From Thermomicrobium sp. 4228-Ro (GTDB lineage Bacteria; Chloroflexota; Chloroflexia; Thermomicrobiales; Thermomicrobiaceae): a DNA stretch of 64,000 bases. Below are positions 8,584 to 46,205 of the stretch, piece by piece (position 1 is the first letter of the stretch; each line of letters opens with the position of its first letter). The stretch covers positions 372,001-436,000 of the forward strand of contig NZ_JAPFQM010000001.1 in assembly GCF_026241205.1 (NCBI RefSeq), read 5' to 3'. Below the pieces are notes generated by a model. It was not told where the DNA came from. It ran no database searches and was given only the letters and a program-made list of their open reading frames with translations. The translations under genes and the position numbers were made by a program.

Positions 8584-10331
8584 TTCGGCATCTCCTGCAG
8601 AGCCCGATAGGCCGGTCGCGGACTCCAGTCGGTGTACACGACTGACCAGGGAAACTTCTCGTCACTGGGATCGGTGATGGTGCTGAAATTGAGGTTCCAC
8701 ACGAGCATCACACCGACCCATGGCCATTCGGTCCGCGCGATTTCGAACGCCCGCACCAGGTACTGGGCCTGCTGTTGCTCGCTGATGTAGTTCCCATACT
8801 CGTACCCGGGCGCCTGGTTGGCCGTCGACCACCCGAATTCGGTCAGCCAAACCTGCTTCGCGGCGTCCCCGTTCTCCACCATGACCTGCCGCAACTGCTC
8901 CGCGCGCCGGAAATAGAAGCTCGGGTGGTCCAGCCAACCTGGGCCGGGACCGGGCCGATCTGGCCACAGCGTATCAGGTGGGTTGAGCGTTCCGCCCGGA
9001 TGCGTCGCGAGATGATCGAAGTACTGCTTCACTTCACCGTTGTTATAGGCGTACACCATACGGAGGTATTCGACATCGTCGATCGCGATCGATGGATCCA
9101 TGACTCCCGTGGGCGTCAAGCCGCCGAACAGCACGATCGCGCGCGGATCGGACTTCTTGATTCCCTGGTACGCCACCTTCAGGAGGTTCACGTATCGCCC
9201 CACGTCGACATGTCCACCAGTCTCGTAGGCGAGGTTCTGCTCGTTCCAGATTTCCCACGCATGGACCTTTCCAGCATAGCGCTTGGCGAGGAACTCCATG
9301 AGTTTTCCATAGGAGGACGGGTCAGCCGGCATCATCCCGTTCGGATCCACCCACGTCGGAGGCGGTCCCACCACGCTGACGACGATCTTGACACCGTTCG
9401 CAGCTGCCGTGCCGATGATACGATCGAGAGCGTGCGTATCGTAGCGCCCTGGGCGCGTCTCGATGTCCCGCCAGATTGCCTGGAAGCGGATCCAGGAAAA
9501 GCCGGCTCCCTTTACCAGATCCATGGTTCGTTGGTTGAAGCCATCTCCGTCATGGTCGCCCCGCCAGGCGATGTTGAATCCATAGCCGACATGTGGGCCG
9601 TATTGCCGGTTGCGGATCGGATCGTACGGCGGCAGAGCTGGATCCTGCCGGGCGAGCGCCTCCTGAGGCGCTCCTCGCACTGCCAGATACTCTCGTCCGA
9701 GCAGGCCGAGCAGCACTTCATACGGCGTACCGGCATATTCGGGGTGATACTCGAAACGCGCCCGCTCGAAATACTGAACCGTGTGCACCGCCCCGTCACC
9801 AGCCGGCGGGGGCGGGTTCTGTTCGGAAAATTCCTCAGACAAGGGCAGGCCGAAGACCCGCCAGCCGCCGTAGCGATCCCAGTACGCCTTGAAACCGAAC
9901 GCCAGGGAGTGTCGAGTTTCTGGGAAATAGCGGCGGTCTCTCGTGTCGGGGAACCACTCGATCGGGCGGAAGGGTTCCTCGTCCTCGCGTCCGCTCACTC
10001 GCCAGGCTCCCACCCGGACGAGTTGCACTTCATCCTCGGTTCCGGCGGACTCGGGGTGATACTCGAAGACCGCCCGTTCGAAGTATTGTCGCCAGTAGCC
10101 GTCCTGCTTGAAAACACCGGTGATCGGGTAACCGAAGATGAAGAGACCGCCGTGCGTCTCCCAGAAACGGCGGAAGGGTCCTTGTACCCAGAAGCCTGTC
10201 TCGGAAAAGTAACGCGGCATTTCCAAATCTTCGGGAACGCTCGGTGCAGCTGCTCGAACGGGTAGCGGAGACGCAGGGGCGACCGAGCCGAGCAGCAGCC
10301 ATACCAGCGCGAGGCAACGCAGGATTTTCAC
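8580..10331 (-). CDS. Secreted protein with two FGYP modules and a clan GH-A glycosidase domain
   Basis: 583 residues from the GTG at 10331, chosen because it has a GAAGGGGG site and is followed at once by a signal peptide (MKILRCLALVWLLLGSVAP). Two repeats follow (about residues 38-115 and 125-230) with the pattern RYF.ET, W...GG, FGYP or FGLP and QYFERA.FEYHPE. The C-terminal 340 residues form a TIM-barrel of clan GH-A type. WEIWNEQNLAYE supplies the acid/base Glu and VWLTEFGWST the nucleophile Glu. The domain is closely related to the lipoprotein at 18857-20062. The substrate is unknown; GH39- or GH5-like families are the nearest in appearance. Modules may anchor the enzyme to wall or glycan (inference). 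Confidence 0.8.
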   Translation of the reverse strand: MKILRCLALVWLLLGSVAPASPLPVRAAAPSVPEDLEMPRYFSETGFWVQGPFRRFWETHGGLFIFGYPITGVFKQDGYWRQYFERAVFEYHPESAGTEDEVQLVRVGAWRVSGREDEEPFRPIEWFPDTRDRRYFPETRHSLAFGFKAYWDRYGGWRVFGLPLSEEFSEQNPPPPAGDGAVHTVQYFERARFEYHPEYAGTPYEVLLGLLGREYLAVRGAPQEALARQDPALPPYDPIRNRQYGPHVGYGFNIAWRGDHDGDGFNQRTMDLVKGAGFSWIRFQAIWRDIETRPGRYDTHALDRIIGTAAANGVKIVVSVVGPPPTWVDPNGMMPADPSSYGKLMEFLAKRYAGKVHAWEIWNEQNLAYETGGHVDVGRYVNLLKVAYQGIKKSDPRAIVLFGGLTPTGVMDPSIAIDDVEYLRMVYAYNNGEVKQYFDHLATHPGGTLNPPDTLWPDRPGPGPGWLDHPSFYFRRAEQLRQVMVENGDAAKQVWLTEFGWSTANQAPGYEYGNYISEQQQAQYLVRAFEIARTEWPWVGVMLVWNLNFSTITDPSDEKFPWSVVYTDWSPRPAYRALQEMPK

Positions 10332-25122: not shown

Positions 25123-25140
25123 CCTGTCTCGCCAACCGAG

Positions 25141-25243
25141 ACGGCCGCGGGAGCTCGGGGTTAACCGGGCTGAGAGGGTGGCTCGACACCCCGCCACCGA
25201 CCGTGGAACCTGAACTGGGTAATGCCAGCGGAGGGAAGGCCGT
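25141..25243 (+). promoter_or_regulatory. TPP riboswitch (THI element)
   Basis: The conserved core is intact: CTCGGGG, then GGGCTGAGAGGG, ACCC-containing P3 region, and the pyrophosphate-binding side CCTGAACTGGGTAATGCCAGCG followed at once by gAGGGAA. ACGGCC at the 5' end can pair with GGCCGT at 25238-25243 to close P1. It precedes a thiamine-precursor ABC transporter, the usual target, and should switch expression off when thiamine pyrophosphate is plentiful. About 120 nt separate it from the first start codon, room for a terminator or RBS-sequestering platform. Confidence 0.93.
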
Positions 25244-25363
25244 GCACGAGAACCCCCCACACGACGAAAATTCGTCCCGCCAGTCGAGCGGTTCGTTCGT
25301 CCCATTCTCCTACGCTGTCGTCCGCCGGTCGCGATCGCGCACTCGTCGACCCGGGGGGTGGCC

Positions 25364-32488: not shown

Positions 32489-32701
32489 TCACTCGACTGC
32501 GACCATGACCTCGGTCGCTTTGATGATGGCCACGACCGGTGTGCCGGGAGCCAGCCCCAGTTGCTCGGCCGACTCGCGGGTAATGACGGAGACGAGCTCT
32601 TGCCCATTGCCGAGGTCGATAACGACCTCGCTGACGACTGCTCCGTGTTTCACGGACTTCACTGTGCCCCGCAACTGGTTGCGGGCGCTGATACGCTTAA
32701 G
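32489..32701 (-). CDS. Molybdenum-pterin-binding (Mop) domain protein, start unresolved
   Basis: The 69 residues KRISARNQLRGTVKSVKHGA to the end match a single Mop/TOBE domain (about 69 residues in MopI-type molbindins), which stores or senses molybdate or tungstate. SARNQLRGTVKSV, VVIDLGNGQELVSVITRESAEQLGL and VVAIIKATEVMVAVE are typical. In frame, the codon before Lys-2 is CTT; there is no ATG, GTG or near TTG. A GGAAGG site lies right before. The nearest in-frame TTG is about 30 codons upstream. A mutation, sequencing error or rare start is possible. Coordinates assume the position before KRIS. Confidence 0.7.
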   Translation of the reverse strand, partial: LKRISARNQLRGTVKSVKHGAVVSEVVIDLGNGQELVSVITRESAEQLGLAPGTPVVAIIKATEVMVAVE

Positions 32702-33145
32702 CCCTTCCTTCCGCGCCCATGACCTCTGACGAGAGTTCCAAAACAGTCTACCACGTTCCCGTCGGGTCCATTGGCAAATTCGTGCACACCCGAGCAACCC
32801 CGGGGCGATCTTTTTCGGTCTTTCCCGATCCGAGTGCGTCAAACGATACGAACCATACAGTATCACTTCGGCCCGTGAAGGAGGCGTCGTGGGGTTCACG
32901 GTACGGCTCGTCACAGGACGTGCGTGAGTCGCGCATGCCCCTTTACGGTTGACGAGACACCGGATCCTGGCCAAATCGAACGCACTCGGCCTCATTGTGA
33001 CCAAGCCCGAGCTGGTCGACCGACTGACGAAGATGGGGTGCGCTGTCCGATGTACTGGCGGCCGACACTGGTAGCGGCACAGAAGCGCTGCTGACGTGAT
33101 CCCGCTGATCCCGCGCACTACAAGTGGGAGACGGTCGAGAAGCTG
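32702..33145. other. Intergenic region with traces of decayed coding sequence
   Basis: About 440 bp. From 32950 to 33130 on the + strand, stretches such as ILAKSNALGLIVTKPELVDR and, in other frames, CPMYWRPTLVAAQKRC and HYKWETVEKLM look like pieces of a gene broken by frameshifts and stops. They run into the small ORF at 33146. The 5' part of this gap holds nothing recognised. Confidence 0.4.
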
Positions 33146-37121: not shown

Positions 37122-39498
37122 TCAGCCCTCCGCAGGATGCGTCAGACGCCAGATCGTATCCGGATCGAGCGGCATTCGCGTGATCCGCACCCCGAAGGGT
37201 TGCAAGGCATCCTCGACTGCCGCGGCGAACACGGCCGGCATGGGGATCGCTCCGGCCTCCCCGACTCCTTTGACACCGATCGGATTGAGCGGTGAGGGCG
37301 TCTCCTGATGTGCGACCTCGATGCGCGGTATTTCCATCGCTGTCGGCATCAAGAAGTCCATGAAGCTCGCGTTCAACAATTGCCCGTTCTCGTCGTAATG
37401 GAGCTTCTCGTAGAAGGCTCCGCCGATTCCCTGGGCGATCCCACCGTGCACCTGTCCCTCGACGACCAGCGGGTTGATCAGCTTGCCGCAGTCGTGCACG
37501 ACCCAGAGCTTGCGGAAGACGACTTGACCGGTGTCGATATCCACTTCGACCAGCGCCCCCACTGCACCGCTCGCCCACGTCGCATGTGGGGGAGAGTAGT
37601 ACTCCGTCGCCTCCAGCGCCGGCTGGCGTCCGGGCGGGAGTGCTGGCCCTGTCCAGGGACGCGGTCGGACCACGAGATCGCCGGAGTAGGCGTACCGCAA
37701 CGGGTTCGCCAACTGCGCCACCTGTGCCCAGGTGAAACCGCGTTCCGGTGCGCCGCGGACGAATACCCGGCCGTCCTCGACGACCAAGTCCTCCGGCGCG
37801 ACCTCGAGCTCTTCGGCCACCAGCGCGAGGCCCTGCTCGCGCACCTTACGAGCGGCCAAGGCAACGGCGCTCCCGCACACCACCGCGCTCCGGCTCGCAT
37901 AGGTCCCCGAGCCGAACTGGAAATGCTCCGTATCGCCCTCGTAGACCTGCACGGACTCGAGCGGGACCTGCAGCTCCTCCGCCACGATCTGAGCCAGGAT
38001 CGTCTTGTGCGCCTGCCCCTGCTGCGGCATCCCAGTGGCCACGTACACCTGTCCGGTCGGCTCGATCCGAACCGTCGCCCCCTCGTACGGCCCGATACCG
38101 GTACCCTCGACGTAGCAGGCGATGCCGACCCCGACGTATCGCCCCTCCGCCCGCAGACGCGGGAGTTCCTCCTGGATCAGGCGCTGGTAGTCCATGCGCT
38201 CGAGCAGCAGGTCGAGCATACCGGGATAGTTACCGCTGTCGTAACGGGTCGGCGCCCCGTCCTGGAAGATCAGTCCCACATCGTAGGGAAACTCGTCCGG
38301 CTGGATGAAGTTGCGGCGTCGGACTTCCGCGCGGTCGAGCCCGAGCTCATCCGCTACGCGATCCAGCAGCCGTTCCATGACGAAGCAGGCATGGGGACGG
38401 CCAGCACCACGGTAGGGGCTGACCGGGACGGTATTGGAATAGACAGCGCGAAACTCGACGTGGTAGTTGGGAACTTTGTACGGTCCGGGCAATTGGCACG
38501 CCGTGATGATCGGCACGATGATGCCATAGGGCGTGTAGGCACCGGCATCGTGGAGGAAGCGGTCGCGGATCCCGAGGATGCGTCCCTCGGCATCGACGGC
38601 GATCTCGGCTTCGTGGATTTGTAGTCGCTCGTGGTTGGTCCCCACGAAGTGCTCGAGGCGATCTTCCGCCCATTTCACCGGCCGGCCGAGAATCATGGCG
38701 GCATAGGGAATCAGCACTTCTTCCGGATAGACCATGATCTTGCAGCCGAACCCACCACCGACGTCCGGCGCGATGACTCGAACCTGTGTCGGCGCGAGAC
38801 CGAACAGTGCTGCCAGCGCATTCCGGATCACGATAGGGGCCTGCGTGGTATCCCAGACCTCGAGGACCGCTTCTTCGCCCGGATTCCATGTCGGCCAGAA
38901 CCGCACGTGTCTCGATCGGCATACCGGCGCTGCGCTCGATCACGAGGCGTTCGCGAAAGACGTGTGCCGCCTCGGCGAACGCCCGTTCCGGATCCCCGAC
39001 GATTCCCACGTAGTGTGCCGCGACGTTCGTCCCCAGCTCTTCGTGCACCAGCGGTGCTCCAGGCTGTACTGCACGCTCGATATCGACGACCGGCGGCAGC
39101 TCCTCCCACTCCACGACGATCGCCTCCAGGGCGTCTTCCGCAGCATACCGGCTCTCGGCGATCACCATTGCCACCGGCTCGCCGACATGGTTGACCTCGT
39201 CCCTGGCCAGTGCATAGCGCGTATACGGGTGCGTGAGGTCCGGATGCGGAATGAGCAACGGCATCCGGCGCTGGCAGGGTCCGATGTCCTGGTAGGTCCA
39301 GACGGCGACGACACCCGGCGTCGCCCGCGCCGCTGTCACGTCAATCGAGCGGATCCGCGCATGCGCGAGTGGGCTCCGCAGGAACGCGACGTGCAGTTGC
39401 CCTGGCAGGTCGATGTCGTCGACGTAGCGACCGTGCCCCGTCAGCAAGCGCGGATCCTCAGCCCGCTTGACCGGTTCACCGAAGAAACGGGTCGGCAT
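37122..39498 (-). pseudogene. Molybdenum hydroxylase large subunit (CoxL/XdhA family), single frameshift
   Basis: Read together, the two frames encode about 791 residues, the normal length. The first frame (39498 to about 38888) covers MPTRFFGEPVKRAEDPRLLTG to PIETRAVLAD. The second resumes WNPGEEAVLEVWDTTQAPIV and runs intact to 37122. Removing one base near 38886-38890 (GACATGG to GACTGG) restores the frame. The pterin-binding region (PDVGGGFGCK), the loop SPYRGAGRPHACFVMERLLD and the catalytic Glu in GVKGVGEAGAI are present. The form-I CO dehydrogenase loop AYRCSFR is absent, so this is an aldehyde-oxidase/xanthine-dehydrogenase-like or form-II enzyme. No other stop occurs, so the lesion is recent or an assembly error. 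Confidence 0.85.
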
Positions 39499-39517
39499 GG
39501 TTCGCCTCCAACCCTCG

Positions 39518-40012
39518 TCAGCTCGATCGCAACAGCTGTGCCGCGTACCGTGCCGCTTCGACGATGTTCTGATACCCGGTGCAGCGACAGAGATTGCCGG
39601 AGATCGCCTCGCGGATCTCTTCCTCTGTCGGATCGGGGTGCTCCGCGAGAAACGCTTTCAGGACCATCAACATACCGGGCGTGCAATAGCCGCACTGGAG
39701 CCCATGCTTTTCCCAGAAGGCGCGCTGCAGGGGATGCAGTTCGCCGTCGCGCGGTGCCAGTCCCTCGACTGTCTCGATCGCGTGCCCGTCGACCTGCACC
39801 GCGAACAGTAGACAGCTCCGCACCGGCTCACCGTCGAGGAGCACGGTGCAGGCACCGCACACCCCGTGCTCGCAGCCGACGTGCGTGCCGGTCAGGCCGA
39901 GCTCGTGGCGCAAGAAATCGGACAGGAGCAGGCGCGCTTCGACATCGCGCTCGTAGACGGCCCCATTCACAGTGACCCGGATCGTCCGGCGTTCCGTACC
40001 CACCGCACTCAT
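39518..40012 (-). CDS. Molybdenum hydroxylase [2Fe-2S] subunit (CoxS-like)
   Basis: 164 residues. The N-terminal plant-ferredoxin-type cluster site reads VGCEHGVCGACTVLLDGEPVRSC. The C-terminal helical cluster site has LQCGYCTPGM and GNLCRCTGYQ. Both clusters pass electrons from the molybdenum centre to FAD. Its start overlaps the end of the FAD subunit by 4 nt, and the large subunit starts 19 nt after its stop. Confidence 0.95.
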   Translation of the reverse strand: MSAVGTERRTIRVTVNGAVYERDVEARLLLSDFLRHELGLTGTHVGCEHGVCGACTVLLDGEPVRSCLLFAVQVDGHAIETVEGLAPRDGELHPLQRAFWEKHGLQCGYCTPGMLMVLKAFLAEHPDPTEEEIREAISGNLCRCTGYQNIVEAARYAAQLLRSS

Positions 40013-40893
40013 CGGTTCATCCCTTCCAGCGCTCGCTGTGCCGCCAATGCCAGTGCCCGCTCGGCGAGGACGCCAGCGACGAAGCGTCGATACGCTGCCG
40101 AGGCGTGGATATCGCTGGTCGGATCCAGTTCTTCTCGGACAGCAGCCGCTGCGGCACGCCAGGTCTCGGGAGCCAGCGGCTGCCCGCGCAAAGCCGCCTC
40201 AGCCGAGCGCGCACGCACCGGTGTCCCGCTCACCCCGATAAAACTCAGTCGCGCATCCTCGATCGTCCGTCCATCGTCCGACAGCGTCACCACTGCGCCG
40301 ATTCCGACCAAGGCATAGTCACCGTGTCGGCGCGCGACTTCCAGCCAGGCGGTCCCGCTCCGGGTCGGAAGGACCGGAAAACGGACGGCGGTCACGAGTT
40401 CGTCCGCTGCGGCAACGGTCGTCAAGAGATCGACGAAGAACTCGCCCGCTGGTACCACCCGCTGGCCGTTTCGACTCCGCAGCTCGACCGCACCGTCGAG
40501 CGCCACCAGCACCCCTGGGAGCTCAGCCGCTGGGTCAGCATGCGCGATACTCCCTCCGACCGTGCCCCGCGTGCGGATCGGAAGATGGCCGACGTAGCGG
40601 ATCGCTTCTGCCAGCAACGGCTGGTACTGTGCTACCGACGGCGACCGTTCCACGGCTCGGTGCCGCGTCATCGCCTTGACGCGCAGGAAACCGTTCTCGA
40701 GCTCGATCCCGTCCAGTTCGGCTATCCTGTTGAGATCGACGAGGACGCTCGGTCGGGCCAGGCGCATGTTCAGCATGGGAACGAGACTCTGGCCACCGGC
40801 CAGTGGCTTCGCCTCGTCGCCGAGGTCAGCAAGAAGGGCGAGTGCTTCCTCGAGGCTCTCCGGTGCTGTGTAGCGAAAGCGCGGTGGCTTCAT
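40009..40893 (-). CDS. Molybdenum hydroxylase FAD subunit (CoxM-like)
   Basis: 294 residues from the ATG at 40893 with GAGGGGAT 6 nt upstream. FAD contacts are KPLAGGQSLVPMLNMRLA and RTRGTVGGSIAHADPAAELP. It hands electrons from the iron-sulfur subunit to an acceptor. It is first gene of the leftward operon. Its start codon overlaps that of the divergent DUF2877 frame (CATG at 40891-40894), so promoters for one or both must lie inside coding sequence or the DUF2877 start is further right. Confidence 0.93.
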   Translation of the reverse strand: MKPPRFRYTAPESLEEALALLADLGDEAKPLAGGQSLVPMLNMRLARPSVLVDLNRIAELDGIELENGFLRVKAMTRHRAVERSPSVAQYQPLLAEAIRYVGHLPIRTRGTVGGSIAHADPAAELPGVLVALDGAVELRSRNGQRVVPAGEFFVDLLTTVAAADELVTAVRFPVLPTRSGTAWLEVARRHGDYALVGIGAVVTLSDDGRTIEDARLSFIGVSGTPVRARSAEAALRGQPLAPETWRAAAAAVREELDPTSDIHASAAYRRFVAGVLAERALALAAQRALEGMNR

Positions 40894-41857
40894 GGACGAT
40901 CCCCTCACTCCTGCTCGTCCGACACGTTATTCTCCAGCGACTCCCCGTGCGCGCCCCTCGCCTCCTGAGTCCAGCGGGAGTACCGGCACCGCACTGCGAC
41001 GTCCCTCTCTCCGTCTGGTCGCGAGCCCGGTCGTGCCGCTCGTCTTCGGACCTCCGCGCGAGCTGCGGGCCGTCGCGGCCTACCCGCGCGCAGTCTACCT
41101 GACCGACGGCTCGCGGTGGGTCTCGCTGGTCACACCAGGCGCCTTGCTCCCACCCGACGGCCTCCACTTGGAGGCCCAGGACGACCTGTCGGTACGCGTA
41201 CCACCGGGTGCGATCGTGCGGATCGGCCGCGGCCGGCTCGAACTCCCCAGCGGCTCGGCACTCGTGGCGACTCCAGCGACGCGCCTGTGGCTCCCGGTAG
41301 TCCGTCCCGGCAATCGTCCAAGGCGATGCTCGATGCAGCTCGCGGCTGCGTTGCTGTGCGACCTGCCGCCGCAGCCCCCAGTCGCCGATCCCTTCGCCCT
41401 GCGCGTTACGCCCCGGCTCCACACACTGTACGGTGCGGTGCTGCGCAGCCTGTCGCAGGAACGGATGGACGAGGCGATCCAGCATGTCGTGACACTGGCC
41501 GGTCTCGGCCCCGGACTCACGCCGCTCGGCGACGACGTACTCGCTGGCATGCTCCTCGCACTCTCGCTGCTTGCACCTTACTTGCCGGAAAACTGGCTCA
41601 GCTACCGGTACGATCTGGCGGTCGCGGCTGCCGCTCGAACCACCGGCCGCAGCGCGAGTTGGCTCCAGCTGGCTGGGAACGGCGCGTTCGCTCGTCCCTT
41701 CCTGGTCTTCGGCCGCGCGCTCCAGCGGTGCGACCGGCGTCACGCTCCAGCGCTCCTCAGGCACGTCCTCGCTACCGGTTCCACCTCCGGCTGGGGCGTC
41801 GCCTACGGTCTGCTGACGACCTACCGCGAACTCGGCTCCCTGGTTGGTCTCGAATAA
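40892..41857 (+). CDS. allH: DUF2877 protein, oxamate carbamoyltransferase subunit AllH-like
   Basis: Up to 321 residues. The DUF2877 hallmark LAGLGPGLTPLGDDVLAGML is clear, as is the C-terminal HVLATGSTSGWGVAYGLL. In E. coli the homologue (YlbF) acts with FdrA and YlbE as oxamate transcarbamylase, which transfers carbamoyl from oxalurate to phosphate. The first 40 residues are Pro/Arg-rich and unlike the family, so the real start is probably downstream, for example GTG 41033. It is separated from allF by a 393-bp regulatory gap. Confidence 0.8.
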   Translation: MDDPLTPARPTRYSPATPRARPSPPESSGSTGTALRRPSLRLVASPVVPLVFGPPRELRAVAAYPRAVYLTDGSRWVSLVTPGALLPPDGLHLEAQDDLSVRVPPGAIVRIGRGRLELPSGSALVATPATRLWLPVVRPGNRPRRCSMQLAAALLCDLPPQPPVADPFALRVTPRLHTLYGAVLRSLSQERMDEAIQHVVTLAGLGPGLTPLGDDVLAGMLLALSLLAPYLPENWLSYRYDLAVAAAARTTGRSASWLQLAGNGAFARPFLVFGRALQRCDRRHAPALLRHVLATGSTSGWGVAYGLLTTYRELGSLVGLE

Positions 41858-42030
41858 CGCGAGGTTCGCCTTCGATCGCATGCAGAACCCGTCTCGATCG
41901 CTGTCGGGTGAGCGAAACACCGCACCCACTCGCTGCTCGTGCCCAGTCGGTTGAGAAAAGCAACGATCCATGCCATCGACTCCTTGCCGATGGCGCGAAC
42001 GAGACCGCTGTTCGTTGGCCGAAAAAGCCG

Positions 42031-42056
42031 AGAGGAGCTCGTCGCGGAGCTCCTCT
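42031..42056. promoter_or_regulatory. 26-nt inverted repeat at the allF promoter, candidate operator
   Basis: AGAGGAGCTC (42031-42040) and GAGCTCCTCT (42047-42056) form a perfect 10-bp inverted repeat around GTCGCG. Its last base is the first of the -35 hexamer. As DNA it looks like the site of a dimeric repressor or activator. As minus-strand RNA it would be a hairpin followed by a five-T run, but no minus-strand gene needs ending here. Confidence 0.5.
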
Positions 42057-42084
42057 TGCCCTCGGGCGACGCGAGCAGTATAGT
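42056..42084 (+). promoter_or_regulatory. Promoter of the allFGK operon
   Basis: TTGCCC (42056-42061) and TATAGT (42079-42084) are 17 nt apart. The start would be near 42091, giving a leader of about 160 nt before allF. Confidence 0.6.
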
Positions 42085-42090
42085 CTGGGC

Positions 42091-42233
42091 GAGTCGAGCG
42101 TGTCAACGAGCCGGGTCTCGTCTTCTCGCCGATCGTGTTAGGAGGGTAGTCCCGGGAACGCGGCTCACCAGAGAGATCAGCAGTCGAGTGGCCAGCCTGG
42201 AAACTGCTCCAGGTTGGCCTGGCTACTTTTTTT
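42091..42233 (+). promoter_or_regulatory. allF leader with intrinsic terminator and competing helix
   Basis: A stem of 42188-42200 pairs with 42209-42213 and 42219-42226 (outer helix GTGGCCAG with CTGGCTAC, inner CCTGG with CCAGG, TTGGC bulged) and is followed at once by seven T (42227-42233), a textbook intrinsic terminator 8 nt before the allF ribosome site. AGCAGT (42179-42184) can instead pair with ACTGCT (42203-42208) in its loop. Upstream, GAGCC (from 42109) can pair with GGCTC (to 42166) and CCGGG with CCCGG. The layout resembles a riboswitch or protein-controlled attenuator. No known class was matched. Confidence 0.6.
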
Positions 42234-42250
42234 GGAGCGAGGAGGGAGCG

Positions 42251-43795
42251 ATGATCGTTCGCCTGCACGTCGAGCCGAATGCGTATTTCGACTCCGTCGC
42301 GCTCATGGCGGTGGCAGCTGCGGCCAATCGCCGCGCTGGCGTCGACCTGGCTGCGCTGGTGATGGGTACGAGCGCGAACCTGGAACTCTTGCGTGATTCG
42401 GGTATTTGGGACGCGCGACTCGAGCAGGTGGGACCGAACGACCTCGTGATTGCTGTTCGCGCAGAGGATGAAGAGACAGCGCTCGCCGCGATCCAGTTCG
42501 CGCTGGAGGAACTGTGGCGAGCGACGCCGGTCCGGCAGGTCGCGGACACGACCATCGTCCCTCGCACTCTCCGCGGCGCGCTCCGTCTCGCCCCACAGGC
42601 GCAGGTCGTGGCTGTCTCGGTTCCTGGTCCGTATGCACCGATCGAAGCCGAGGAAGCACTCCGGGCCGGCCGTCACGTCTTTCTCTTCAGCGACAACGTT
42701 CCGATCGACGAAGAGGTGCGGCTGAAGCGGTTAGCCTCCGAACTCGGGTTACTGCTCATGGGACCCGACTGCGGCACTGCCTCCATCGCGGGACTCGGTC
42801 TCGGCTTCATGAATGCGGTCCGCCGTGGGCCGATCGGCATCGTCGCGGCGGCTGGCACCGGGCTACAACAAGTGGCTTCGCTCATCGATTGGTTCGGTTC
42901 GGGAATCAGCCATGGGATCGGTACCGGCGGACGCGACCTCGACGAGCGCGTCGGCGGCCTGACGATGGCAGCCGGACTCGCAGCGCTCGCCAGCGATCCG
43001 TCGACCGAGGTGATCGTCCTCATCTCCAAGCCTCCTGCCCCGGCTGTGGGCCAGCGCATCCTCGATCAGGCAGCTCACTGCGGAAAACCGGTCGTCGCTT
43101 GCTTCGTCGGCGGGACTGCGGAGGAGCGTACCGACGTGCAGGTGACCCGCGACCTGACGGAAGCAGCACGACTCGCCGTCCACCTCGCGACCGGCCAACC
43201 GGTCGACACCTTGGACGTACCGGGCATGGCGGAGGCACGCACTCGTCTGGCCACTGAACGGTTGCACCTGGCACCGGAACAGCGCTTCCTGCGCGGCCTC
43301 TACAGCGGCGGCACGCTCTGCGACGAGGCGATGACCATCCTGATGCCGAAGATCGGTGCCATCCATTCCAACGTTCCGTTGCGACCGGAATGGCGGCTCG
43401 CCGATCCCCACTGGAGCACAGGCCACACTTTCGTCGACCTCGGCTCGGACGAGTTCACGGTCGGTCGCCCGCATCCGATGATCGACCAGACGATCCGGAT
43501 CGAGCGTCTGTTGCGCGAGGCCGACGATCCGACTGTCGCTGGGATCGTCCTCGACGTCGTCCTCGGTTACGGCGCCGCCGCCGATCCCGCCGCTGAACTC
43601 GCGCCGGTTATCGCTGAGGCACGGGCCCGAGCCCAAGCGACCGGACGTGCCCTACCGGTCATCGTCGCACTGATCGGCACGCGCTCCGACCCGCAAGGCT
43701 TCGATCGGCAACGCGAACGACTGGAAGCCGTGGGGGCCATCGTCGTCCCCAGTAATGCCGCCGCTGCAGAACTCGCCGCCCAGTTGGCGCGGTGA
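42251..43795 (+). CDS. allF: FdrA family protein, oxamate carbamoyltransferase subunit
   Basis: 514 residues from the ATG at 42251, directly behind GGAGGGAG. FdrA resembles the alpha chain of succinyl-CoA synthetase: VSVPGPYAPIEAEEALRAGRHVFLFSDNV, LLLMGPDCGTASIAGLGLGF and GPIGIVAAAGTGLQQVASLI. FLRGLYSGGTLCDEAM begins the second half. In E. coli, FdrA, YlbE and YlbF together form oxamate transcarbamylase; FdrA is the putative phosphate/carbamoyl-handling subunit (inference from fold). allG follows after 20 nt. Confidence 0.88.
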   Translation: MIVRLHVEPNAYFDSVALMAVAAAANRRAGVDLAALVMGTSANLELLRDSGIWDARLEQVGPNDLVIAVRAEDEETALAAIQFALEELWRATPVRQVADTTIVPRTLRGALRLAPQAQVVAVSVPGPYAPIEAEEALRAGRHVFLFSDNVPIDEEVRLKRLASELGLLLMGPDCGTASIAGLGLGFMNAVRRGPIGIVAAAGTGLQQVASLIDWFGSGISHGIGTGGRDLDERVGGLTMAAGLAALASDPSTEVIVLISKPPAPAVGQRILDQAAHCGKPVVACFVGGTAEERTDVQVTRDLTEAARLAVHLATGQPVDTLDVPGMAEARTRLATERLHLAPEQRFLRGLYSGGTLCDEAMTILMPKIGAIHSNVPLRPEWRLADPHWSTGHTFVDLGSDEFTVGRPHPMIDQTIRIERLLREADDPTVAGIVLDVVLGYGAAADPAAELAPVIAEARARAQATGRALPVIVALIGTRSDPQGFDRQRERLEAVGAIVVPSNAAAAELAAQLAR

Positions 43796-43815: not shown

Positions 43816-45264
43816 ATGAGCGAGCAGATCCGCGCGTTGTTGCAGGACAAACCGAATGTGATCAACGTCGGGCTCGAACTGTTCGCGCAAGCGGTCCGCC
43901 AACAGGGCGGCGCTGTCCAATCGGTGGACTGGAAGCCACCGTTGGTCGAGCCAGCCCGGGGCGCACTTCCGCTCTTCAACGATCCATTAATCGCTGCGGC
44001 GAACCAGGACGCAGTGACCCGGATGATGCGCGCCCAGCCGGTGGTCGTCGGTGTCGCCCGGGCCCGCGACGTCATCCCCGGTATGACCGAGCGCACGTTC
44101 CTCCACGCCGGACCGCCGATCGACTGGCAGCACGCTTCCGGCCCCTTACGTGGAGCGCTGATCGGTGGCATGCTGTTCGAAGGTTTCGCCACCACGCCGG
44201 AAGAGGCGATCCGCAAACTCGAATCCGGCTACATCGAACTCGCTCCCAACCACGAGCACAGTGCGGTCGGTCCGATGGCCGGTGTGATCACGCCGTCCAT
44301 GCCGGTGTACATCGCGGTCAATGCCAGCGGTGAGAACCGCGCCTACACCAACTTCAACGAAGGCATCGGTAAGGTGATGCGGATGGGAGCCTACGCGCCC
44401 GAAGTCATCGACCGGTTGCGCTGGATCAGTACAGTGCTGGCGCCGCTGGTGGGCCGAGCGCTCGAGCGGAGTGGCGGCATCGACTTGCGGAACATCATCG
44501 CCCAGGCACTGCAGATGGGCGACGAGTGTCACAATCGCAACAAGGCCGCGACATCGCTCTTCTATCGCGAGATCGCACCCTACCTGGTCGAATGCGATGC
44601 GCCGACTTCCGACATCGCCGCGGTGCTGCGCTTTATCAACGCCAACGACCACTTCTTCGTCAACCTGGCGATGGTCGCTGCGAAGGTGATGGCTGATGCC
44701 GCACACGATGTGCCGGGTAGCACGCTGGTGACCACGCTGTCACGGAACGGGACGGAGTTCGGTATTCGGGTCTCCGGCCTCGGGAATCGCTGGTTCACTG
44801 GCCCGGCCAACGTGCCGCGCGGTCTCTACTTCGCCGGTTTCGGACCGGACGACGCCAACCCTGACATCGGCGACAGCGCCATAACCGAGACAGCTGGCTT
44901 CGGTGGTTTCGCGCTGGCCGGTGCCCCCGCCATCGTCCAGTTCATCGGCGGCACTCCGGTCGATGCAGTTCGTGCGACGCTCGAGATGTACGAGATCACG
45001 GTCGCCGAGCACGAGATTTTCCGCATCCCAGCGCTGGATTTCCGTGGCACCCCCGTCGGCATCGACCTCCGTGCTGTCATCCGCAGTGGCGTTCTCCCCG
45101 TCATCGATACCGGGATCGCGCACCGCGAACCGGGCATCGGGCAGGTCGGAGCCGGAATCGTTCGCCCTCCGGAGCGTTGTTTCGTCGAGGCGTATCGGGC
45201 CGTCGAACGAGCGTACCTCACCGGAACCTTTCGGAACGCCGAAGCCACCGAAAGGAGCAGGTGA
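43816..45264 (+). CDS. allG: DUF1116 protein, oxamate carbamoyltransferase subunit AllG-like
   Basis: 482 residues with GGGAGGAGG upstream. It matches DUF1116 (YlbE): NVINVGLELFAQAVRQQGG, FLHAGPPIDWQHASGP, MAGVITPSMPVYIAVN, QMGDECHNRNKAATSLFYRE and ANDHFFVNLAMVAAK. It is a subunit of oxamate transcarbamylase with AllF and AllH. Its stop overlaps the carbamate kinase start (TGATG), a sign of tight co-translation. Confidence 0.9.
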   Translation: MSEQIRALLQDKPNVINVGLELFAQAVRQQGGAVQSVDWKPPLVEPARGALPLFNDPLIAAANQDAVTRMMRAQPVVVGVARARDVIPGMTERTFLHAGPPIDWQHASGPLRGALIGGMLFEGFATTPEEAIRKLESGYIELAPNHEHSAVGPMAGVITPSMPVYIAVNASGENRAYTNFNEGIGKVMRMGAYAPEVIDRLRWISTVLAPLVGRALERSGGIDLRNIIAQALQMGDECHNRNKAATSLFYREIAPYLVECDAPTSDIAAVLRFINANDHFFVNLAMVAAKVMADAAHDVPGSTLVTTLSRNGTEFGIRVSGLGNRWFTGPANVPRGLYFAGFGPDDANPDIGDSAITETAGFGGFALAGAPAIVQFIGGTPVDAVRATLEMYEITVAEHEIFRIPALDFRGTPVGIDLRAVIRSGVLPVIDTGIAHREPGIGQVGAGIVRPPERCFVEAYRAVERAYLTGTFRNAEATERSR

Positions 45265-46205
45265 TGAAGCGCCTCGTCGTCGCGCTCGGTGGAAACGCCA
45301 TCATTCAGGCGGGACAGCGCGGTACCGCGGAGGAGCAGCAAGCGAATGTCGATCTCACCTGCCGTCAGCTCGCCGAACTGGTCGCAGCTGGTTACGAACT
45401 GATCATCACTCACGGGAACGGCCCGCAGGTGGGCAACTTGCTCGTCAAGAACGAGCTCGCCCGCGAAGTCGTCCCGCCCGTCCCTCTCCACTGGTGCGTC
45501 GCCCAAACGCAAGCGACGATCGGCTTCATGATCCAGCAGGCACTCGGGGCTGAACTGCAGCAGCGCGGTATCGAGCGCGTCGTGGCGACGCTGGTCACCC
45601 GTACCGAGGTGAGTCCGGACGACCCCGCCTGGCGTGAGCCGACCAAGCCGATCGGACTCTACTACCCGGAAGAACGCGCTCGCGCGATCATGGCTGCGAC
45701 CGGTCAGGTCTGGAAGCCTCAGGGATCGCGCGGCTGGCGGCGCGTCGTGCCGTCACCCGACCCGATCGCCATCGTCGATCGGCCAGCGATCGAGCTGCTC
45801 CTGGGGGCAGGGGCGATCGTCGTGGCCTGCGGCGGTGGCGGAATACCGGTCGTCCGTCGCACTGACGGGCGTTACGAGGGCGTCGAGGCAGTCATCGACA
45901 AGGATCTGGCCGCTGCGCTCCTCGCACACGAACTCGGCGCGGACGCACTCGTTATTCTCACGGACGTTCCCTCCGTCATGCTCTACTACGGAACTCCGGA
46001 GGCGCGTCCGCTCGAGAAGGTGACGGTCGAGGAGCTACGCCGCTATCAGGCCGATGGGCACTTCGCCTCCGGCAGTATGGGCCCGAAAGTCGAAGCAGCG
46101 ATCCGCTTCGTCAGCAGGAAGCCGGGCCGGCGCGCGGTCATCGCGGCTCTCGACCACGCGCGCGAGGCGGTCGAGGGGAGAAGCGGGACACAAGTCATCG
46201 GTTGA
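45264..46205 (+). CDS. allK: Carbamate kinase
   Basis: 313 residues from the ATG at 45264, with AAAGGAGCAGG upstream. It uses carbamoyl phosphate to phosphorylate ADP, leaving carbamate that decays to CO2 and ammonia. Motifs are RLVVALGGNAI, ITHGNGPQVGNLL, IVACGGGGIPVV, AVIDKDLAAALLA and FASGSMGPKVEAAI. The arcC-type enzyme is encoded here with AllF/AllG, not with arginine deiminase genes, so it should drain the transcarbamylase reaction and yield one ATP. A short inverted repeat (46205-46232) follows the stop and may terminate the operon. Confidence 0.93.
   Translation: MKRLVVALGGNAIIQAGQRGTAEEQQANVDLTCRQLAELVAAGYELIITHGNGPQVGNLLVKNELAREVVPPVPLHWCVAQTQATIGFMIQQALGAELQQRGIERVVATLVTRTEVSPDDPAWREPTKPIGLYYPEERARAIMAATGQVWKPQGSRGWRRVVPSPDPIAIVDRPAIELLLGAGAIVVACGGGGIPVVRRTDGRYEGVEAVIDKDLAAALLAHELGADALVILTDVPSVMLYYGTPEARPLEKVTVEELRRYQADGHFASGSMGPKVEAAIRFVSRKPGRRAVIAALDHAREAVEGRSGTQVIG

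Follow-up and report, generated by a model that had tools for sequence, protein, structure and literature searches.

Putative overlapping divergent promoters and terminator-like hairpins in a lineage-specific control region upstream of allF in Thermomicrobium

Introduction

What does a stable hairpin followed by a run of T do directly in front of allF, where a transcript begun at the promoter-like site upstream would have to pass it before the first codon is reached? The initial annotation had regarded this leader as a candidate undescribed riboswitch or attenuator. Here, the locus was analyzed in the window, i.e., the whole stretch of 64 kb of DNA, and compared with its relatives. The reading that we favor, with a probability of roughly 45%, is that the region may be a lineage-specific bidirectional promoter from which both transcripts are attenuated early, this attenuation being relieved by a trans-acting factor. 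The genes concerned and the ribosome site of allF are as follows.

37122-40908, minus strand: CoxMSL-type molybdenum hydroxylase operon (Pfam and NCBIfam; synteny in relatives)
40892-41857, plus strand: allH (Pfam AllH), upstream of the control region in Thermomicrobium
42240-42245, plus strand: allF ribosome site AGGAGG, from the sequence
42251-43795, plus strand: allF (FdrA), oxamate carbamoyltransferase subunit (NCBIfam PRK06091 FdrA, E 2.9e-138; ATG at 42251)
43816-45264, plus strand: allG (Pfam AllG, E 1.3e-97)
45264-46205, plus strand: carbamate kinase gene, allK-like (Pfam AA_kinase)

The molybdenum hydroxylase operon and cyclases lie on one side of the control region and allF, allG and the carbamate kinase gene on the other. 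The true start of allH is probably near 41003, and the allK-like name was transferred, by inference, from the allFGH-K operon.

Results

Distribution of the control region

Nine further genomes from the family contained FdrA/AllF orthologues of at least 60% identity. The control region was present in seven genomes, namely that of the window and G007, G011, G015 and G049 from the same genus, and G023 and G075 from a sister genus, in which the allF and molybdenum hydroxylase operons are directly divergent across the element. Alignment of the seven intergenic regions revealed three conserved islands: A (41972-41994), B together with the promoters (42022-42106) and C (42190-42233). G031, G105 and G035 possess allF and lack the element. 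The control region is best read as lineage-specific, belonging to Thermomicrobium and one sister genus as judged by these alignments.

The sister genus occurs in two states: G023 and G075 carry the element without allH at this position (in G023, allH is located on another contig), and in G031 and G105 allH directly precedes allF and the element is missing. AllF of the latter two is less similar to that of the window, at the level of 61%, as compared to 68% for G023 and G075. In the more distant relative G035, the gap between allH and allF (L034 ~9605-9720) is without B and C and contains TTGCGC-17-TATAGT as well as TGTCAAC in triplicate; this heptamer forms the minus-strand -35 in Thermomicrobium, and its copies in G035 are perhaps an operator.

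Promoter-like sites on both strands

Two promoter-like sites overlap in the control region.

42056-42084, plus strand: P+, promoter-like site for allF, TTGCCC-17-TATAGT, inferred start ~42091
42077-42106, minus strand: P-, promoter-like site, TTGACA-18-TATACT, its -10 overlapping that of P+, inferred start ~42070

The well-spaced allF promoter described in the initial annotation (TTGCCC at 42056-42061, 17 bp, TATAGT at 42079-42084) was recovered with 9 of 12 consensus matches. Its -10 is preserved in all seven orthologues, and its -35 differs between the genera (TTGCYC in Thermomicrobium, TTCCTC in the sister genus). P+ is weak: three to four of six -35 positions agree with the consensus in the genus, and among the six genomes scanned only G000 and G011 had a P+ score above the cutoff. 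The annotation had overlooked the minus strand, on which this stretch bears a better-matching promoter-like site and another hairpin with a T-run. P- shows 11 of 12 consensus matches, with a spacer of 17 or 18 across genomes, and was the top promoter-like site in six of six genomes scanned (6-12 kb each); the alignment displayed the same hexamers in the seventh genome, G007. Its -35 TTGACA is invariant across the two genera. The -10 elements, TATAGT at 42079-42084 on the plus strand and TATACT at 42082-42077 on the minus strand, share four bases, an overlap that is kept in relatives, and overlapping -10 elements on both strands are one mark of a bidirectional promoter. The starts, placed at 42091 and 42070 from the -10 positions only, are 21 bp apart, a separation which would fall inside the range of 7-25 bp between starts on opposite strands by which bidirectional promoters have been defined (PMC10268837).

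The terminator-like hairpin in the allF leader

42182-42233, plus strand: element C, intrinsic terminator-like; 12-bp stem 42190-42201/42208-42219, basal stem 42182-42186/42220-42224, T7 42227-42233

The stem and seven T directly before the allF ribosome site, likewise part of the initial annotation, stood up to scrutiny. The hairpin at 42182-42224, consisting of 12 bp (GGCCAGCCTGGA/TCCAGGTTGGCC) and a 5-bp basal stem, folds at -28.3 kcal/mol (z -4.0 as compared to dinucleotide shuffles, 0 of which were equally stable) and precedes the T-run at 42227-42233; the gap of 7 nt between main stem and T-run is bridged by the weak basal stem. No other run of at least six T in the 64 kb is accompanied by a hairpin of -20 kcal/mol or lower, and shuffled windows yielded 0.3 such sites. 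The pattern of GGCCAGCC, a 5-17 nt spacer, GGTTGGCC, 7 nt and T6 was found in one copy per genome in 7/7 genomes, and both the stem GGCCAGCC/GGTTGGCC and the T-run are invariant in the seven orthologous leaders (five from Thermomicrobium, two from the sister genus), for which the stem gave z values of -1.8 to -4.3. One compensatory C-G/U-A change was observed among the seven genomes. Viral sequences were scanned for C as well, and none was found there.

C is a stable G+C-rich hairpin followed by a T-run, as is B (described below), and it lies between the promoter and the start codon. Across the seven genomes, 18-33 nt lie between the end of the T-run and the start codon of allF; hence no separate promoter fits behind the T-run, and the possibility that C is the terminator of allH with an allF promoter of its own downstream was rejected on this distance. 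Since C is situated between the upstream starts and allF, allF mRNA begun upstream must read through it. The terminator-like element in front of allF is real and ordinary in kind; by its position, C as a predicted terminator would be an attenuator. Conditional read-through, which the initial annotation had deduced, may be restated more cautiously: conditional or partial read-through follows provided that C terminates.

The leader upstream of element C

42091-42181, plus strand: leader between P+ and the terminator, near-constant in length in the genus, variable in sequence, with no common structure

An undescribed riboswitch in the allF leader would accord with the position of a terminator-like hairpin ahead of the first gene of a catabolic operon, and the HMP-PP riboswitch (PMC6478431) provides a precedent for an aptamer embedded in a terminator, so that a compact sensor inside C is conceivable. 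As in that riboswitch, regulatory information could sit inside the terminator stem. Unlike it, C has no aptamer consensus, belongs to another gene class and displays a variable loop; the shortening of this loop to 3-5 nt in the sister genus speaks against a terminator-embedded aptamer. The leader before C argues in the same direction. Despite a distance from the -10 to C of 104-109 nt within the genus, 42109-42185 is the least conserved segment of the control region, and in the sliding identity table the cross-genus identity of the B-to-C interval, ~0.25-0.4, equals that of unconstrained flanks. The longer upstream pairing noted at 42109-42166 was not above chance: 42091-42187 folds worse than its own shuffles (z +1.1), 174 of 200 of which equaled or exceeded its stability. 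The seven orthologous leaders gave fold z values between -1.6 and +1.3, none showing above-chance structure, and alifold detected no consensus structure before C. The aptamer which the initial annotation had placed upstream of the terminator thus found no counterpart in the comparison of the seven leaders, as neither covarying nor conserved aptamer structure was seen in them.

Rfam scans, run at the gathering and at the E 10 thresholds, returned no family match at the locus or in its six relatives, and even at E 10 only spurious ones. Elsewhere in the window, the TPP riboswitch RF00059 was recognized at 25137-25254 on the plus strand with 57.8 bits, which makes it a suitable positive control for these scans. 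Taking fold, conservation and Rfam results into account, a riboswitch is very unlikely, being the least probable of the readings considered here.

Other means of sensing within the leader were sought as well. The AGCAGT at 42179-42184 is, as annotated, complementary to the ACTGCT at 42203-42208; however, ACTGCT lies mainly in the loop of C, so that its pairing would not compete with the stem as that of an antiterminator does, and the pair, which is not conserved, was rejected. Duplexes of the leader with the loop or with the 5' arm were no better than those of shuffled leaders in all seven cases (0/7), that is, no mutually exclusive antiterminator was found. An ORF common to the seven leaders in position and sequence, as expected of a leader peptide, was not detected. 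The allF frame itself is open through the entire leader, back to 41939 (41939-43795, plus strand), which looks like chance in G+C-rich DNA; similarity to the AllF proteins of relatives starts only at 42251. PyrR-like, T-box and ANTAR leaders were considered in a check of the alignments by eye, in which no fitting conserved loops were seen. Taken together, the attenuator half of the initial proposal was retained, with C conserved in 7/7 orthologues, and its riboswitch half was abandoned: the presence of a terminator in a leader does not by itself argue for an aptamer.

Hairpins on the minus strand

42022-42056, minus strand: hairpin B, intrinsic-terminator-like, AGAGGAGCTC/GAGCTCCTCT and T5 (42026-42022)
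41972-41994, minus strand: element A, hairpin GCCATCG/CGATGGC, downstream of B, with a T-rich tail in some species

Hairpin B, of -25.6 kcal/mol, precedes its T-run and starts ~14 nt past the inferred P- start, so that there is no room for an aptamer here either. Element A shows an identity of 0.88-0.93 within the genus. In both A and B several variable pairs change to G-U on the minus strand, where the plus strand would have A-C mismatches, and conversely C contains in 7/7 genomes a G-U pair which is valid on the plus strand only. On account of these strand-specific G-U pairs, the RNA of C is assigned to the plus strand and that of A and B to the minus strand, an assignment that is suggested by few independent events and small numbers.

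Alternatively, B might mainly be a DNA operator for a repressor or activator of both operons, its minus-strand hairpin being incidental. The arms AGGAGCTC-N5/6-GAGCTCCT, present at the control region in 7/7 genomes, are invariant around a variable loop of 5-6 nt, and AGGAGCTC...GAGCTCCT has at most one other match per genome; moreover, two GAGCTC palindromes 11-12 bp apart lie just below P- and reach the -35 of P+, B thereby abutting P+ just downstream of P-. An operator is less readily reconciled with a spacer that varies between 5 and 6 bp, with outer arms that in the sister genus are asymmetric as DNA and G-U paired as minus-strand RNA, and with the terminator-like T-run behind B (T5 in Thermomicrobium, T4 in the sister genus). 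We therefore regard an operator as quite unlikely.

Restriction to a single locus

Covariance models R1 (built on C) and R2 (on A and B) gave strong matches at this locus only among 158 genomes of the class; weak extra matches (E 0.003-0.05) were taken as chance. The composite P-/B pattern was detected in 7 places in 84,980 species genomes, a set which may omit the window's own genome; six of these are this locus and one, on an Omnitrophica contig, is probably due to chance. A dispersed element family was accordingly rejected. Strong matches at one locus only indicate a cis element of a single locus and no dispersed regulon.

The same observation bears on the possibility that B and/or C are the 3' ends of two back-to-back genes for trans-acting small RNAs, one of ~45 nt (minus strand) and one of ~140 nt (plus strand). 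A near-consensus promoter followed immediately by a terminator is indeed the anatomy of a small-RNA gene, and the RNA 5' of C is of near-constant length within the genus. Contrarily, the body of the plus-strand RNA is conserved neither in sequence nor in structure, the minus-strand RNA would be almost a hairpin alone, and the occurrence of the element at one locus, with no strong match elsewhere, points to action in cis. Small RNAs are thus a very unlikely explanation.

Discussion

The main rival to control by a trans-acting factor is that both C and B act as partial terminators of fixed, unregulated strength and that any regulation takes place at the promoter. C would then dampen allF or shield it from transcription running through from allH and P+, and B would stop back-transcription from the near-symmetric -10. 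Bidirectional promoters are common in bacteria and their backward RNA is often non-coding (PMC10268837), the E. coli allF operon is governed at the promoter by AllS and ArcA (PMC12535856), and the leader before C is unconstrained, all of which would be in line with fixed terminators. By contrast, the invariance of the P- -35 TTGACA in two genera goes beyond what would be required for by-product firing, the stems of B and C retain their sequence and not their pairing alone, and a strong terminator that is never relieved would presumably be costly in front of a catabolic operon. Weighing both sides, we consider fixed terminators somewhat unlikely.

For the favored reading, early attenuation of both transcripts with relief in trans, we propose the following course. 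RNA polymerase would load on the overlapping -10 sequences in either direction. Toward allF, it would synthesize a leader of ~140 nt normally ending at C, and toward the molybdenum hydroxylase side a short RNA of ~45 nt normally ending at B, so that the full-length allF-allG-kinase mRNA would require read-through of C. This read-through might be set by a trans-acting protein recognizing the stem or promoter-proximal DNA or RNA, or alternatively by a modified polymerase. Promoter firing, termination at B and C, conditional read-through and control by a protein are all steps that we infer from the sequence. As the sequence of the B and C stems is kept beyond the need for pairing and the leader is without a conserved sensor, a trans-acting protein and not a metabolite aptamer is the most likely agent. 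The Pfam analysis recognized no regulator gene in the cluster, and the factor is for that reason hypothetical. Furthermore, stem conservation could partly reflect short divergence, since two genera were sampled. The weakness of P+, the 7-nt gap in C and the possible role of B as an operator likewise weigh against this reading.

In its overall layout, the allF leader resembles intrinsic-terminator attenuators such as those of trp and pyr and the expression platforms of riboswitches: a promoter and a non-coding leader are followed by a strong hairpin and a T-run before the ribosome site of the first gene, and the terminator is conserved in orthologues. It differs from them in having no conserved aptamer, antiterminator, leader peptide or known protein-binding motif. 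With bacterial bidirectional promoters (PMC10268837, PMC12825309) the region shares overlapping, near-symmetric -10 elements and the 21-bp distance between inferred starts; unlike in those, both directions here meet a conserved hairpin and T-run, and the -35 of P- is a conserved perfect TTGACA. In E. coli allD/allF (PMC12535856), too, the allF operon and a divergent operon share a control region, an arrangement that is met directly only in the sister genus; here, however, the partner operon is that of a CoxMSL-type molybdenum hydroxylase, and the leaders carry terminator-like hairpins. The E. coli allF paper mentions no leader, terminator or attenuation (PMC12535856).

A further step would be that the region acts as a double-faced attenuator, at which a single RNA- or polymerase-binding factor could release both divergent catabolic operons together, that for oxamate carbamoyltransferase and that for the molybdenum hydroxylase; we deem this unlikely. 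If it were true, early termination and not promoter direction would decide the output of two operons, and the locus would be a compact example thereof in Chloroflexota, where RNA-level control is little known. The interest of the locus lies in the conserved two-sided arrangement, the best conserved part of which is the promoter/terminator pair on the strand opposite to allF.

Two further observations concern the molybdenum hydroxylase genes. A protein with a Mop-type molybdopterin-binding (TOBE) domain is encoded near the operon, at 32489-33118 on the minus strand of the window; its ORF is probably noncoding in the upstream part. The CoxMSL-type large subunit is split between two frames near 38892 on the minus strand. 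In the relatives examined (G007, G011, G015 and G049) it is unsplit and in one frame, and the split would appear to be either a sequencing error or a recent frameshift.
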